Made by a program: the position numbers and the translations under genes. Source: Bizionia saleffrena (GTDB lineage: Bacteria; Bacteroidota; Bacteroidia; Flavobacteriales; Flavobacteriaceae). Taken from it: a stretch of DNA of 64,000 bases. Positions 751 through 47,533 of this stretch are shown piece by piece. The stretch spans positions 62,001 through 126,000 of the forward strand of contig NZ_VSKM01000010.1 of assembly GCF_008086175.1 (NCBI RefSeq), read 5' to 3'. Position 1 is the stretch's first letter. Each line of letters starts with the position of its first letter. The notes beneath the pieces are model-generated. The model was not told the DNA's origin and made no database searches. It was given only the letters and a program-made list of their open reading frames with translations.

Positions 751-1212
751 ATGAAAATCTACACTTTCCATAAAAAGCAAAAGTTACCGATTACAAAAGA
801 ACAAGCTTGGGACTTTTTGTCAAGTCCGAAGAATTTAAAAACCATAACTCCCGATTATATGGGATTCAATATCTTATCTGGAGCCGACCGCCCAATGTTT
901 GCTGGACAAATTATACAATATATAGTAACGCCAGTTATGGGAATAAAAACGAAATGGGTTACCGAAATTACACACGTAAAAGACGGAGAGTATTTTGTAG
1001 ATGAGCAACGTTATGGCCCCTACGCTTTATGGCATCATAAACACTTTATCAATGTAATTGATGGAGGTGTTGAAATGGAAGATATTATAGATTATAAAGT
1101 ACCGTTTGGTTTTTTAGGGCAGCTAGCGCATCCTTTTTTAGTTAAACCAAAACTTGAAGAAATTTTTGAATACAGAACAGAGAAGCTAGAAGCGCTTTTC
1201 GGAAAATATTAA
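751..1212 (+). CDS. SRPBCC-fold protein (START/polyketide-cyclase-like)
   Basis: A 153-residue soluble protein with the layout of the SRPBCC superfamily: an opening strand (YTFHKKQKLPITKEQAWDFLSSPKNL), a central sheet with the GIKTKWVTEITH strand, and a long C-terminal helix (EEIFEYRTEKLEALF). The ligand cannot be predicted. In flavobacteria such proteins often sit beside photolyase genes, as here (the photolyase begins 53 bases downstream), which suggests a light-induced gene set. No catalytic residues are recognisable. Confidence 0.8.
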   Translation: MKIYTFHKKQKLPITKEQAWDFLSSPKNLKTITPDYMGFNILSGADRPMFAGQIIQYIVTPVMGIKTKWVTEITHVKDGEYFVDEQRYGPYALWHHKHFINVIDGGVEMEDIIDYKVPFGFLGQLAHPFLVKPKLEEIFEYRTEKLEALFGKY

Positions 1213-27650: not shown

Positions 27651-27695
27651 CACTACACTACACTACACTACACTACACTACACTACACTACACTA
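27651..27695. repeat. Pentanucleotide microsatellite, nine CACTA units
   Basis: Nine perfect head-to-tail CACTA units (45 bases) begin 6 bases after the DUF1275 stop. It is a simple-sequence tract prone to slippage. It lies outside any coding region, so length changes would not alter a protein. Confidence 0.95.
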
Positions 27696-41757: not shown

Positions 41758-43218
41758 ATGTTTGAACAAAGTTTTAAAAATATAGACGACATACTACATA
41801 AAGATGCAGGATGCGGAAGCGAATTAGATTATGTAGAGCAAACCTCTTGGGTACTGTTTTTAAAATATTTAGACGATTTAGAAAAAGACAAAGAAAATGC
41901 AGCTTTACTTTCTGGAGAAGCATATACTAGACTCATAGAACCTCCCTACCAATGGACAAATTGGGCAGCTCCTAAATTAGAAGATGGTAAAATTGACCAT
42001 AACACACAAACAGGAGACGATTTATTAGACTTTGTTAATAACGAATTGTTTCCTTACCTCAAAAAGTTTAAAGTAAATGCTACAAGTGCAGATACTATAG
42101 AATATAAAATTGGTGAAATCTTTGGGGAATTAAAAAACCGAATTCAATCTGGATATAATTTAAGAGAAGTCGTTGGCTTAATAGACCAACTACGTTTTCG
42201 TACGCACGCAGACCAATTAGAGATGAGCCACCTCTATGAAGGTAAAATTAAAAATATGGGTAATGCAGGGCGTAATGGTGGCGAGTATTACACACCACGT
42301 CCATTAATTAAAACCATTATAAAAGTAGTTAACCCTAAAATTGGTGAAACCGTTTATGATGGTGCTGTAGGAAGTGCAGGATTCTTGGTAGAAGCTTTTA
42401 ATTACTTACGTAACACCAAAAAACTATCTACGCAAGACATAGAGACACTACAAAAGAAAACCTTTTACGGTAAAGAGAAAAAATCATTGGCATATATAAT
42501 TGGTATTATGAATATGATATTGCACGGGGTAGAAGCCCCCAATATTATACACACCAATACGCTTGCAGAAAATAGTGCCGACATACAAGAAAAAGACCGT
42601 TACAATGTGGTGTTAGCAAACCCACCATTTGGAGGAAAAGAACGTGCAGAAGTACAAGAAAATTTCCCAATTAAAACAGGTGAAACTGCTTCTTTGTTTT
42701 TACAGCATTTTATTAAAATATTAAAAGCGGGTGGTAAAGCTGGTATTGTAATTAAAAACACGTTTTTAAGTAATACCGATAATGCTTCTGTTGCCATACG
42801 TAAAGAACTACTAGAAAACTGTAACCTACATACGGTCTTAGATTTACCAGGCGGAACCTTTACAGGTGCGGGTGTGAAAACTGTGGTCTTGTTTTTTGAC
42901 AAAGGTGAACCCACTAAAAAAGTATGGTTTTACCAATTAAACCTTGACCGTAATTTGGGAAAACAAAACCCACTAAACGAAAAAGATTTAGCCGATTTTG
43001 TAACCCTACAAAAAACAAAAGCCGAAGGTGAAAACTCTTGGAGCATACGTTTAAGTGACATTGACCAAACAACTTTTGACCTTTCTGCAAAAAACCCAAA
43101 TACACCAGAAGAAGCGCCTTTACGCCAACCCAATGAAATTTTGGAAGCAATGGCTACTTTGGATGCTGAAAGTGCTGATGTAATGAATGATTTAAAATTG
43201 TTGATTGGAAATGAATAA
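41758..43218 (+). CDS. hsdM: Type I restriction-modification DNA methyltransferase subunit
   Basis: A 486-residue HsdM. The N-terminal helical domain (FKNIDDILHKDAGCGSELDYVEQTSWVLFLKYLDD) is followed by the SAM-binding domain: motif I VYDGAVGSAGF at residues 199-209, a variant of DPACGSGGF, and motif IV NPPF at 288-291. It makes N6-methyladenine on the recognition site set by HsdS. Its start follows the dead regulator's stop directly, and it overlaps hsdS by 14 bases. Confidence 0.95.
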   Translation: MFEQSFKNIDDILHKDAGCGSELDYVEQTSWVLFLKYLDDLEKDKENAALLSGEAYTRLIEPPYQWTNWAAPKLEDGKIDHNTQTGDDLLDFVNNELFPYLKKFKVNATSADTIEYKIGEIFGELKNRIQSGYNLREVVGLIDQLRFRTHADQLEMSHLYEGKIKNMGNAGRNGGEYYTPRPLIKTIIKVVNPKIGETVYDGAVGSAGFLVEAFNYLRNTKKLSTQDIETLQKKTFYGKEKKSLAYIIGIMNMILHGVEAPNIIHTNTLAENSADIQEKDRYNVVLANPPFGGKERAEVQENFPIKTGETASLFLQHFIKILKAGGKAGIVIKNTFLSNTDNASVAIRKELLENCNLHTVLDLPGGTFTGAGVKTVVLFFDKGEPTKKVWFYQLNLDRNLGKQNPLNEKDLADFVTLQKTKAEGENSWSIRLSDIDQTTFDLSAKNPNTPEEAPLRQPNEILEAMATLDAESADVMNDLKLLIGNE

Positions 43219-44392
43219 AGAATTGACAATGGAAAAGGCAAGTTTGCCTGATGGATGGGAGATGAAAACTTTAGGAGAGGTTTGTGATTTAAAAAGCGGT
43301 AAAACCATTTCAAAAAGTATCGAAAGAAGTGAAGGCGAAATTCTTTATATCAAGGTTGGTGATATGAATCTTAAAGGAAACGAAAACTATATTCAGGTTT
43401 CCAATCGTTTTGTAGATGAAATAGATATTAAGGCTAATCAAATCATTCCTATTGGTTCAATTATTTTCCCTAAAAGAGGTGGTGCTATTGCAACTAATAA
43501 AAAACGCAGAATTGTTAAGCCAACAATTGTAGACTTGAATACAATGGCTTTAGTTCCTTCAAAGATTATTAATAAGGATTATCTGTTTCATTGGTTTCAA
43601 AAAATAGATTTGGCAGAATTAAGTAATGGAGCGAATATTCCTCAAATAAACAACTACAGTTTTGATAATGTTTTAATTTCATTTCCAAAATCACTAACCC
43701 AACAAAAACAAATAGTAGCCCTATTAGACAAAGCTTTTACTGCCATAGCTACCGCAAAAGCCAATGCACAACAAAACCTACAAAACGCAAAAGAACTTTT
43801 TGAGAGTTATTTACAGAATGTGTTTGAAAATAAAGGAGATGATTGGGAGGAGAACACTTTGGAACAAATATCTGAAAGTATTTTTGCAGGAGGTGATAAA
43901 CCAAAAGATGCTTTCTCTAAGGAAGTAACTACAGAATATAATGTTCCTATTTTTGCAAATGCGGTTAAAAAAAGAGGTCTATATGGATATACAAATAAAG
44001 CAAGAGTTTTAAAGCCTTCTGTAACAATATCAGCAAGAGGAAGTGGAACTGGACATACCGAATTACGGAAAATGAAATACTATCCTATTGTAAGGCTTAT
44101 TGTAGTTATCCCTAATTCAGAAATTATGGATTTGCAATTTTTAAAACACTCAATTGATAATTTGGATATTTTAAGAAGTGGCTCAGCTATTCCACAATTA
44201 ACGGTACCAATGATGAAAGAATATAAATTGGCTTTCCCAAAAATTGAAAAACAAAAACAAATAGTAAATAAACTTGATATTCTATCAGCAGAAACAAAAA
44301 AACTAGAAGCCATTTACACTCAAAAAATAGCCGATTTAGAAGAAATGAAAAAGAGTGTGTTGCAAAAGGCGTTTAGTGGGCAATTACTATAA
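43205..44392 (+). CDS. hsdS: Type I restriction-modification specificity subunit
   Basis: A 395-residue HsdS with two target-recognition domains. The first runs from LPDGWEMKTLGEVCDLKSGKT to a first spacer helix (TQQKQIVALLDKAFTAIATA); the second begins WEENTLEQISESIFAGG and ends in a second helix (KQKQIVNKLDILSAETKKLEAIY). The two helical repeats (QQKQIV / KQKQIV) are typical of the conserved regions. The binding site cannot be predicted from sequence. A transposase gene starts two bases after its stop. Confidence 0.93.
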   Translation: MEMNKELTMEKASLPDGWEMKTLGEVCDLKSGKTISKSIERSEGEILYIKVGDMNLKGNENYIQVSNRFVDEIDIKANQIIPIGSIIFPKRGGAIATNKKRRIVKPTIVDLNTMALVPSKIINKDYLFHWFQKIDLAELSNGANIPQINNYSFDNVLISFPKSLTQQKQIVALLDKAFTAIATAKANAQQNLQNAKELFESYLQNVFENKGDDWEENTLEQISESIFAGGDKPKDAFSKEVTTEYNVPIFANAVKKRGLYGYTNKARVLKPSVTISARGSGTGHTELRKMKYYPIVRLIVVIPNSEIMDLQFLKHSIDNLDILRSGSAIPQLTVPMMKEYKLAFPKIEKQKQIVNKLDILSAETKKLEAIYTQKIADLEEMKKSVLQKAFSGQLL

Positions 44393-44661
44393 GTATGAAC
44401 AATTACAATCCAAAAATACACAAGCGCAAATCTATCCGATTAAAAGGATACGACTATTCGCAAGCGGGACTTTATTTTGTAACCATCTGTTGCCAAAATA
44501 GAACACATTTTTATGGCGAAATAATTAATGGTGAAATGAAATTGAATACCGCAGGCAAAATGATTTACAAATGGTATTATGAATTGGAAAATAAATTTAC
44601 AGATATTAAATGTAACGATATGGTAATTATGCCCAACCATTTTCATTGCATCATCCAAAAC

Positions 44662-44687
44662 GTAGGGGCAGACCTGCGTGTCTGCCC
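44662..44687 (+). repeat. REP-like hairpin inside the transposase gene
   Basis: GTAG (44662-44665) is followed by a perfect 8-bp stem GGGCAGAC / GTCTGCCC with a six-base loop CTGCGT. A GTAG foot plus hairpin is the substrate form bound by RAYT proteins. The octamer GTAGGGGC recurs inverted as GCCCCTAC at 44883-44890, bracketing the repeat array. Confidence 0.8.
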
Positions 44688-44698
44688 TAATACAAAAT

Positions 44699-44873
44699 TA
44701 GGCGAACCTACATTGGGCAAACCATTACCTACATTAGGCGAACCATCGCCTACATTGGGCGAACCTACATTGGGCAAACCATTACCTACATTAGGCGAAC
44801 CTACATTGGGCGAACCATCGCCTACATTGGGCGAACCTACATTGGGCGAACCATTACCTACATTGGGCGAACA
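44699..44873 (+). repeat. In-frame tandem array, nine CCTACATT(A/G)GGC(G/A)AA units
   Basis: Nine copies of a 15-base unit (CCTACATTGGGCGAA or variants) alternate with 21-base forms that add six bases. All lengths are multiples of three, giving (P)TLGE/TLGK peptide repeats. On the minus strand each unit reads GTAGG, so each carries the GTAG foot seen in the REP hairpin. The opposite strand is also open, which only reflects the repeat period. Confidence 0.92.
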
Positions 44874-45100
44874 CGTAGGTTCGCCCCTACATTGTGTGGT
44901 GCAATGGTTTAAAACAATGACAACAAATGAATATATTCGTAATGTAAAATCAAATAATTGGAAACGTTTTGATGGTAAATTGTGGCAACGCAATTATTGG
45001 GAACATATTATACGTGACGAAAAATCATATCATAAAATTTCAGAATACATAATATCCAATCCTCAGAATTGGAAAAATGACACCTTATATTAAAATTAAT

Positions 45101-47533
45101 ATGAATGAAGCTGAAACTAGAGCAGAATTAATAGACCCAAAACTAACGGAAGCAGGTTGGGGAGTTGTAAAAAGTTCTAAAATATTAAGAGAACGCAACT
45201 GCCAAATAACCGCAGGTCGTATTCAAGCAGGTGGTAAAAGAGCCAAACCATTGATTGCCGATTATATTTTGGTGTACAATGGCATTAAACTCGCTGTAGT
45301 TGAGGCAAAAGCAAGAAATTTAGAAGTTGGTGAAGGTGTAGCACAAGCCAAATTATATGCAGACAAATTAACCTTAGACACTACTTATGCTACTAACGGA
45401 GATGATATCTACCAAATCTGTATGCAAACAGGTCAAGAAGGTATTGTAGACCGTTATTTAACACCACAAGAACTCTGGATAAAATCGTATCCATTACGCG
45501 CCAATTCAGAAATTACAGAATTATGGCGAGATAAATTCTCAGACATTCCATTTGAAGATAAATCGGGTACTTGGCAACCACGCTATTACCAAGAAATAGC
45601 CGTAAATAGAACGTTAGAAGCTATTGCAAAAGGTGACGATAGAATTTTATTAACCTTAGCTACAGGAACAGGAAAAACAGCCATTGCTTTTCAAATTGCT
45701 TGGAAACTGTTTCATACCCGTTGGAATCTATCAGTTAATAATCAATATCAAAAACGTCAACCAAGAATTTTATTTTTGGCAGATAGAAATATATTAGCCA
45801 ATCAGGCATTCAATTCTTTTTCAGCGTTCCCAGAAGATGCTTTAGTACGTATAAAACCCAAAGAGATAAAGAAAAGAGGAAAAGTACCAACCAACGGAAG
45901 TATTTTCTTTACCATTTTTCAGTCTTTAATGGCAAATGACAACACCGCAGATGCCGAAGAAATAGAAGAAGAAAACACAACAAGTTATGATACAACTGCT
46001 GCATATTACAATCAGTACCCAAAAGATTATTTCGATTTAATAATTATAGACGAATGCCACAGAGGCGGCGCCAATGATGAAGGAAATTGGAGAGGTATCT
46101 TAGACTACTTCTCTCCTGCTGTTCAATTAGGCTTAACGGCAACACCAAAACGAAAAGACAATGTAGATACCTACAAATACTTTGGCGACCCTGTTTATAC
46201 CTATTCTCTTAAAGAAGGAATTAATGATGGGTTCTTAACGCCTTTTAAAGTAAAACGTATTAAAACCACCATAGATGATTATGTCTATACAAATGATGAT
46301 ACGGTTGTAGAAGGAGAAATTGAAGAAGGTAAATTGTATGAGGAAAAGGATTTTAACCGTAAAATTATAATTCCTGCAAGAGAGCGTTATCGTGTAAAAG
46401 CATTTATGGATGATGCTAACGAACAAGATAAAACCATTATTTTTTGTGCAACACAAGACCACGCAGCAATGGTGCGTGATATGGTAAATCAGTATAAAAA
46501 AATAAGTAAAAACACAAGCTATTGTGTTCGTGTTACTGCAAACGATGGTCAGATTGGAGAAGATGCATTAAAACAGTTTCAAGATAACGAGAAAAGTATT
46601 CCTACTATTTTAACAACGTCTCAAAAACTATCTACAGGTGTAGATGCGCGTAATGTGCGTAATATTGTATTGATGCGCCCTGTTAGTCAGATTATTGAGT
46701 TTAAGAAAATTGTAAGTAGAGGAACAAGAACCTTTGATGGTAAAAACTATTTTACCATCTACGATTTTGTAGATGCACACCAACGTTTCCTTGACCCAGA
46801 ATGGGATGGCGAACCAGAAGACCCCGTGGTCTGTGGCAAATGTAATCAAGAACCTTGCGTTTGTAAAAAAGGAGACCCAAAACAGTGTACTATTTGTGGG
46901 GTACAACCTTGCGCTTGTTTAAAAGAGCCACCTCCAGAATATAAAAAGAAAGTAAAAATTAAATTAAAAAATGGTAAAGAATTAACAATTCAACATACCT
47001 CTCAAACACTATTTTGGGATGCCAGTGGAAAACCTATTTCGTCAGAAGAATTTTTAAATAACCTACTTGGAGAATTACCAAACTTATTTAAAAGTGAAGC
47101 TGAATTACGAAAATTATGGAGTAATCCAACAACTAGAAAAATATTACTTGAAAAATTAGATACCGCAGGTTACGGTATAGAAAAACTAAACGCTTTAAGA
47201 AAATTAGTAGATGCTGAAAATAGCGACTTATTTGATGTGCTAGAGTATGTTTTTAATAGCGAAATAAAACCAATCTCAAGAACGGAACGCGTTGCAGCAG
47301 CAGAAGGGGCTATTTTTACGTTAATGAATCATAAACAAAAAGAATTTATTGAATTTGTGTTGAGTAAGTACATTGAAATTGGTGTAGGTAAATTAGACCA
47401 AACCAAGCTGCCTACTTTACTTTCAAGTATGTTTCAATCTCAAGCAGACGGAATAGAAGAATTAGGCGGAGATCCTTTAAAAATTAGAAATTTATTTATT
47501 GAATTTCAACAATATTTATATAAAACAGCATAA
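45101..47533 (+). CDS. hsdR: Type I restriction-modification endonuclease/translocase subunit
   Basis: An 810-residue HsdR starting at ATG 45101 (MNEAETRAELIDPKL); an ATG at 45077 would overlap the transposase gene. The N-terminal nuclease part has DYILVYNG and VVEAKARN (D, then ExK), followed by the helicase motor: LATGTGKTA (Walker A), IIIDECHRGG (motif II), LTATPKR (III) and late motifs (VSRGTRTFDGKNYF). A Cys-rich segment follows (CGKCNQEPCVC and CTICGVQPCAC), a duplicated zinc-binding-like pair. All catalytic parts look intact, so the restriction system may be active. Confidence 0.95.
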   Translation: MNEAETRAELIDPKLTEAGWGVVKSSKILRERNCQITAGRIQAGGKRAKPLIADYILVYNGIKLAVVEAKARNLEVGEGVAQAKLYADKLTLDTTYATNGDDIYQICMQTGQEGIVDRYLTPQELWIKSYPLRANSEITELWRDKFSDIPFEDKSGTWQPRYYQEIAVNRTLEAIAKGDDRILLTLATGTGKTAIAFQIAWKLFHTRWNLSVNNQYQKRQPRILFLADRNILANQAFNSFSAFPEDALVRIKPKEIKKRGKVPTNGSIFFTIFQSLMANDNTADAEEIEEENTTSYDTTAAYYNQYPKDYFDLIIIDECHRGGANDEGNWRGILDYFSPAVQLGLTATPKRKDNVDTYKYFGDPVYTYSLKEGINDGFLTPFKVKRIKTTIDDYVYTNDDTVVEGEIEEGKLYEEKDFNRKIIIPARERYRVKAFMDDANEQDKTIIFCATQDHAAMVRDMVNQYKKISKNTSYCVRVTANDGQIGEDALKQFQDNEKSIPTILTTSQKLSTGVDARNVRNIVLMRPVSQIIEFKKIVSRGTRTFDGKNYFTIYDFVDAHQRFLDPEWDGEPEDPVVCGKCNQEPCVCKKGDPKQCTICGVQPCACLKEPPPEYKKKVKIKLKNGKELTIQHTSQTLFWDASGKPISSEEFLNNLLGELPNLFKSEAELRKLWSNPTTRKILLEKLDTAGYGIEKLNALRKLVDAENSDLFDVLEYVFNSEIKPISRTERVAAAEGAIFTLMNHKQKEFIEFVLSKYIEIGVGKLDQTKLPTLLSSMFQSQADGIEELGGDPLKIRNLFIEFQQYLYKTA

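Follow-up and report, generated by a model that had tools for sequence, protein, structure and literature searches.

How RAYTs, as single-copy genes without visible transposition, remain associated with their REPs is an open question (PMC3116915). In-frame REPs located between the HuH and Y motifs have been described by Quentin et al. (2018) as a special feature of subclass 2.4 tnpA_REP genes, in which short repeats also occur within a variable insert (PMC6006769). The phenomenon is known, and the gene described here is an additional example of it (PMC6006769). It lies in a 64,000-nt stretch of the Bizionia saleffrena genome, hereafter the window, with the following features.

43205-44392, plus strand: hsdS (Methylase_S), directly upstream of the RAYT gene
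44395-45093, plus strand: RAYT/TnpA_REP gene, 232 aa, with Pfam, NCBIfam and fold matches
44638-44646, plus strand: HUH motif codons H82-F83-H84, both His invariant in 41 relatives
44662-44687, plus strand: 5' REP head, GTAGGGGCAGACCTGCGTGTCTGCCC, with a GTAG foot, a perfect 8-bp stem and a 6-nt loop, encoding VGADLRVCP
44675, plus strand: base 14 (loop) of the 5' head, at codon position 2
44688-44864, no strand assigned: REPIN spacer, mostly array, 177 nt, a multiple of 3
44697-44872, plus strand: in-frame array of ten arm-bearing units, nine of them CCTAC, peptide TLGEP/TLGKP
44865-44890, minus strand: 3' REP head, inverted, GTAGGGGCGAAC-CTACGT-GTTCGCCC, encoding GEHVGSPL
44877, minus strand: base 14 (loop) of the 3' head, at codon position 3
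45046-45048, plus strand: catalytic Tyr codon Y218, motif YIISNP, invariant in 41 relatives
45077-47533, plus strand: hsdR (HSDR_N/ResIII), directly downstream of the RAYT gene, start at 45077 or 45104

That this is a RAYT gene with its own in-frame REP, as the original prediction had it, is supported by profile and fold matches to transposases and by the position of the heads between the HUH motif (H82, H84) and Y218. The residues H82, H84, Y218, N222 and P223 are invariant across 41 relatives, corresponding to an HUH motif and a single catalytic Tyr within YIxxNP, and the protein's top fold match is the structure of the E. coli RAYT in complex with a REP hairpin (4er8). The Pfam Y1_Tnp score is 21.6 bits, below the cut-off of 23. 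REP_Tyr_transpos, the sole NCBIfam match, scores 62 bits (E 5e-17), under its cut-off of 80 because the insert splits the match; scores of short-insert relatives are also below this cut-off (59-73 bits). A Y1_Tnp search of the Bizionia saleffrena genome gave no match, since the domain is split by the insert. In the predicted structure, the insert covers residues about 90-164, flanked by E82-89 and H165-187, and is modelled as coil with a pLDDT of about 50, compared with above 90 for the core; it is thus predicted to form a disordered surface loop. The subclass 2.4 motifs NH[IFV]H, WQ and YIxNNP are matched in the window protein by NHFH, WQRNY and YIISNP, YIxNNP being the consensus of the relatives' family at the Tyr motif. 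Subclass 2.4 tnpA_REP genes correspond to Bertels group 4. Of note, the RAYTs of L082, L089, L063 and L096 carry a short C-terminal extension past the Tyr helix (e.g., NGGEGNFVMEPTTPYNEENW in L089), which is absent from the window protein.

The GTAG foot and perfect 8-bp hairpin predicted at 44662-44687 are present, with a 6-nt loop. As ssDNA, this 5' head folds at -8.7 kcal/mol (z -3.7), and a chance hairpin is excluded, as synonymous recoding of the same peptide yields a stem as good as the 5' one no more than once in 2000 trials (p 0.0005). The inverted GCCCCTAC said to close the insert exists as well, but it had been missed that it belongs to a complete second head, GCCCCTAC at 44883-44890 being the foot and first stem bases of this head. 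Read on the minus strand, the 3' head is GTAGGGGCGAACCTACGTGTTCGCCC, also with a perfect 8-bp stem, and both heads fit the single consensus GTAGGGGCRRACCTRCGTGTYYGCCC without mismatch. Because this second full head is present, the insert is an inverted REP pair, with the two inverted heads that characterize a REPIN at 44662-44687 (plus strand) and 44865-44890 (minus strand). Its GC content is 51%, versus 35% in the window, and the frame is preserved between HUH and Tyr as anticipated, being open throughout and encoding LGEPTLGKP...

Between the heads, nine units presenting GTAGG had been noted; their count and position were right, but they are stem arms without partners and not REPs or targets. 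Nine CCTAC (GTAGG on the minus strand) are found at 44707-44857, and a tenth within GCCCCTAC. The array unit consists of the 3' head's arm, GGGCGAAC on the plus strand (with AGGC/GGGCA variants), followed by a 7-13-nt spacer, with a spacing of 15/21 nt and a higher-order period of 36 nt. The view of these units as nine binding sites was rejected, the partner arm being missing from each. The suggestion of a linker produced by REP amplification fared better, as the array consists of copies of the second head's arm amplified in frame. Tandem arrays are found in the insert of most relatives, and nearly all of their periods are multiples of three, whereas extragenic array periods in the same genomes include 17, 37, 43, and 44 nt; the reading frame therefore acts as a filter. 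To judge from these periods, these REPs generally tend to amplify their arms, and the frame filters the outcome. Slippage or unequal exchange involving the hairpin arm may have given rise to the array, and length changes other than 3n would be lost because the ORF is kept open. No close strains were found for a comparison of unit number, and the nearest related genes share 60-77%, so that only paralogous or partial copies (L016/L198) are comparable in this respect. In these Tenacibaculum piscium loci, a second, partial RAYT copy lies ~530 nt upstream of the intact gene, and the REPIN spacer is 160 nt (not 3n) in the broken copy and 141 nt in the intact one. Near a RAYT of a Bacteroidaceae genome (L186, 19-209), there is an array of 44-nt units, each with a different REP-like hairpin (GTAGGGGCATCCCTTGTGGGTGCCC).

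Searches of bacterial genomes gave 343 relatives; the best 79 of the 343 loci were fetched, and heads were counted in 76 family genes. With a threshold of at least 7 of 8 stem pairs, the 5' head is found in 54 genes and the 3' head in 49; 43 genes contain the two together and 60 contain at least one. The remaining 16 of the 76 have no recognisable head, and hence the head is not essential for retention of the gene. The 5' head is in codon register in 53 of 54 cases, starting 15 nt (or 15+3n) past the HUH codons, and the distance from the 3' head end to the Tyr motif is 155 nt in 27 genes. In six more distant, outgroup RAYT-like genes from the window's own family, both the 5' GTRGG site (0/6) and the 5' head are absent. 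Several REP types exist among the relatives, e.g., with GGGCAGAC, GGGCGACC, GGGCGGAT, or GGGCGCCC stems, and REP type tracks the enzyme clades (21 changes on the tree versus 42.5 when shuffled), which fits an ancestral pair that would have diverged together with the enzyme.

Among these relatives, 96.5% of stem cells are paired in the 5' heads and 96.9% in the 3' heads. Compensatory double changes account for 30 cells in the 5' heads (7.2 when shuffled) and 19 in the 3' heads (5.0 when shuffled), and sliding the stem partner abolishes this covariation signal. Codon identity at positions with matching amino acids is 54.5% in the core, 77.8% in the 5' head, and 99.5% in the 3' head; the genes compared are non-independent, and the outermost codons are inflated because the foot motif, together with a stem filter in the 5' set, served to find the heads. 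In addition, synonymous recoding seldom attains the observed stem (median p 0.012 over 67 genes). Judged by these patterns of change, both heads are preserved as DNA hairpins superimposed on the coding sequence.

These data bear on the idea that the encoded repeats (TLGEP and similar) are themselves under selection as a protein module. The frame is indeed kept and the flanking peptides VGADLRVCP and GEHxGSPL are recurrent, but these conserved peptides track the hairpin in the DNA, their codons being more fixed than the peptides require, while the array peptides are wholly unlike among relatives (LGEQQ, DVVAPN, CVRPDP, GQPQ), vary freely in length and residues, and belong to an insert that is predicted to be disordered; a role as peptide linker is thus highly improbable. 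They bear equally on the possibility that the insert is a functionless passenger, i.e., a REPIN that landed once in a tolerant loop of an ancestral protein and has since persisted through inheritance together with occasional conversion by dispersed REPINs. In its favour, the insert is a disordered surface loop that tolerates wide length change, 16 of 76 relatives lack recognisable heads, and REPs within unrelated genes are known (PMC3733652). However, near-identical 3'-head codons next to saturated core codons, as well as compensatory stem changes, are unexpected in a passive remnant, and the heads are intact even where the genome, including that of Bizionia saleffrena, has no other copy for conversion. 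A passenger therefore seems unlikely.

IS608, ISDra2, and group 3 RAYTs have well-established contacts with loop bases (PMC8266576). In the genes studied here, base 14, the second loop base, is equal in both heads in 27 of 28 cases versus 16.1 expected (p 5e-5), while loop bases 15 and 16 vary freely; comparing whole 5' and whole 3' heads within genes gives a p of 0.027 only, the signal being confined to base 14. Phylogenetically independent contrasts number only 3-6, all in the same direction (sign test p 0.25). The concordance is not explicable by the protein, because the codon positions differ between the two heads, and this matching across codon positions is a further point against the peptide linker. 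Moreover, the internal base 14 is the majority base of the genome's listed REP matches in 15 of 15 genomes, from lists that were in part reduced to distinct sequences and sometimes contain the internal head. This suggests that the two heads are read by the same partner.

In the genome of Bizionia saleffrena (3.28 Mb, 67 contigs), no heads with up to 3 mismatches were found beyond the two in the gene, and a looser pattern gave 26 matches versus 22 for the reversed control, i.e., control level. No similar REP head flanks the gene within 3 kb, and the pair is not repeated in this genome, as a REPIN would be. About two thirds of 30 related genomes have REP matches beyond the internal pair, with up to 55 matches, and at least 8 of the 30 have one forward and one reverse match only, as expected of the internal pair alone. 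All adjacent head pairs identified in five genomes (57/57) are heterotypic in stem or loop, the dispersed REPINs there being two-headed, with one head of either kind. Dispersed REPINs share the gene's two heads in three genomes, namely Anaerobacterium L059 (CTATGT/CTGCGT), L088 (AGAC/GAAC), and L085 (CGATGT/CGGTGT), in contrast to Phocaeicola (L050), where dispersed REPINs are AGAC/GGAC and the internal pair AGAC/GAAC. Taken as sequence comparisons, these data show co-variation between the two heads, and between the heads and the REPs dispersed in their genome. The original prediction had named two observations that would speak against it: an absence of REPs elsewhere, which holds for this genome, and an unrelated insert in relatives, which proved false. 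Since a pair of this kind is found at the equivalent site in most relatives, the prediction survives this test. Dispersed REPINs matching the internal pair in related genomes speak in favour of self-targeting. With no copy outside the gene in Bizionia saleffrena, any activity there is hypothetical, and the pair may be a recent arrival, inactive, or retained for some other reason. Plasmids and phages give weak matches only, and an origin from either is not supported.

On balance, the gene rather likely harbours a resident seed REPIN that is the substrate of the enzyme it encodes. The RAYT would bind the GTAG foot and the loop of each head on single-stranded DNA, like characterised TnpA_REP, and the in-gene pair would serve as a seed to populate the genome, although no such REPIN spread is visible in this one. 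Upon transfer of the ORF, enzyme and substrate would arrive together. A substrate inside the gene would, if true, couple RAYT and REP physically through horizontal transfer, and genomes with the internal pair alone would represent natural "before" states for the seeding idea. A more speculative, though conceivable, extension is a one-gene REPtron, whose coding sequence would be the mobile substrate, with distinct left and right heads travelling with the ORF and repopulating genomes, and with recognition of foot, stem, and base 14 over a disposable linker. Base 14 and the asymmetric heads provide concrete recognition predictions for this RAYT group, for which the literature searched contained no biochemistry.

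The RAYT gene is part of a tightly packed type I restriction operon, with hsdS on one side and hsdR on the other. Hairpins are known to limit transposase synthesis in IS200-type mRNAs, and the RAYT could similarly bind the hairpins of its own gene or mRNA to limit its own synthesis, with a possible effect here on hsdR downstream. While the hairpins lie in the gene's transcribed strand, and RAYT and hsdR follow hsdS closely, the heads are on opposite strands and the mRNA hence shows only one of them in REP orientation. Known TnpA_REP recognise ssDNA REP in a strand-specific manner (PMC8266576), and autoregulation alone would leave the matching dispersed REPINs unexplained, making it a poor candidate.

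RAYTs of different REP types are also located between hsdS and hsdR in several phyla (L029, L044, L063, L082, L089, and L093), in closely related type I operons with HsdR about 67-73% identical. Closely related hsd operons of the window's own family (L204-L207) have no RAYT, from which it follows that the gene was apparently either gained at the window's hsdS-hsdR junction or lost in the other operons. Other ORFs fill this junction in L209, L211, L212, and L215, and it looks like a recurrent cargo site. A literature search for an association between RAYTs and restriction-modification found nothing relevant. A degenerate second RAYT-like gene, with an interrupted frame and no REP insert, is found outside the window (L257, about 800-1100, minus strand; G000 contig 11, about 265.6 kb), and a perfect CACTA x9 microsatellite occurs in the window at 27651-27695.

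Several known systems share part of this organization. REPINs are likewise mobile units made of an inverted REP doublet and tied to a RAYT (Bertels and Rainey, 2011, PMC3116915). However, those REPINs are extragenic, with the RAYT acting in trans, whereas the window doublet lies within the coding sequence itself. IS200/IS605 elements such as IS608 and ISDra2, whose HUH/Y1 enzyme is related according to fold matches, share two subterminal hairpins, a 5' guide tetranucleotide, and loop base contacts, but their hairpins lie outside the ORF at the element ends, while the window gene is single copy and without such ends. In-frame palindromic repeats within ORFs are also known as Rickettsia palindromic elements (RPE) and intragenic REPs (PMC3733652); these interrupt unrelated genes, whereas here the host gene is the cognate transposase. 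Finally, in subclass 2.4, REPs are reported to flank the gene as well (PMC6006769), which is not the case for the window's gene. Relative to the available part of Quentin et al. (2018), the new elements are the asymmetric pair in fixed codon register, its maintenance at the DNA level, the 3n arm arrays, the co-variation both from head to head and from internal to dispersed copies, and the confinement of the pair to the gene in this genome. They add evidence in favour of a cognate relationship between the in-gene REPIN and the enzyme.
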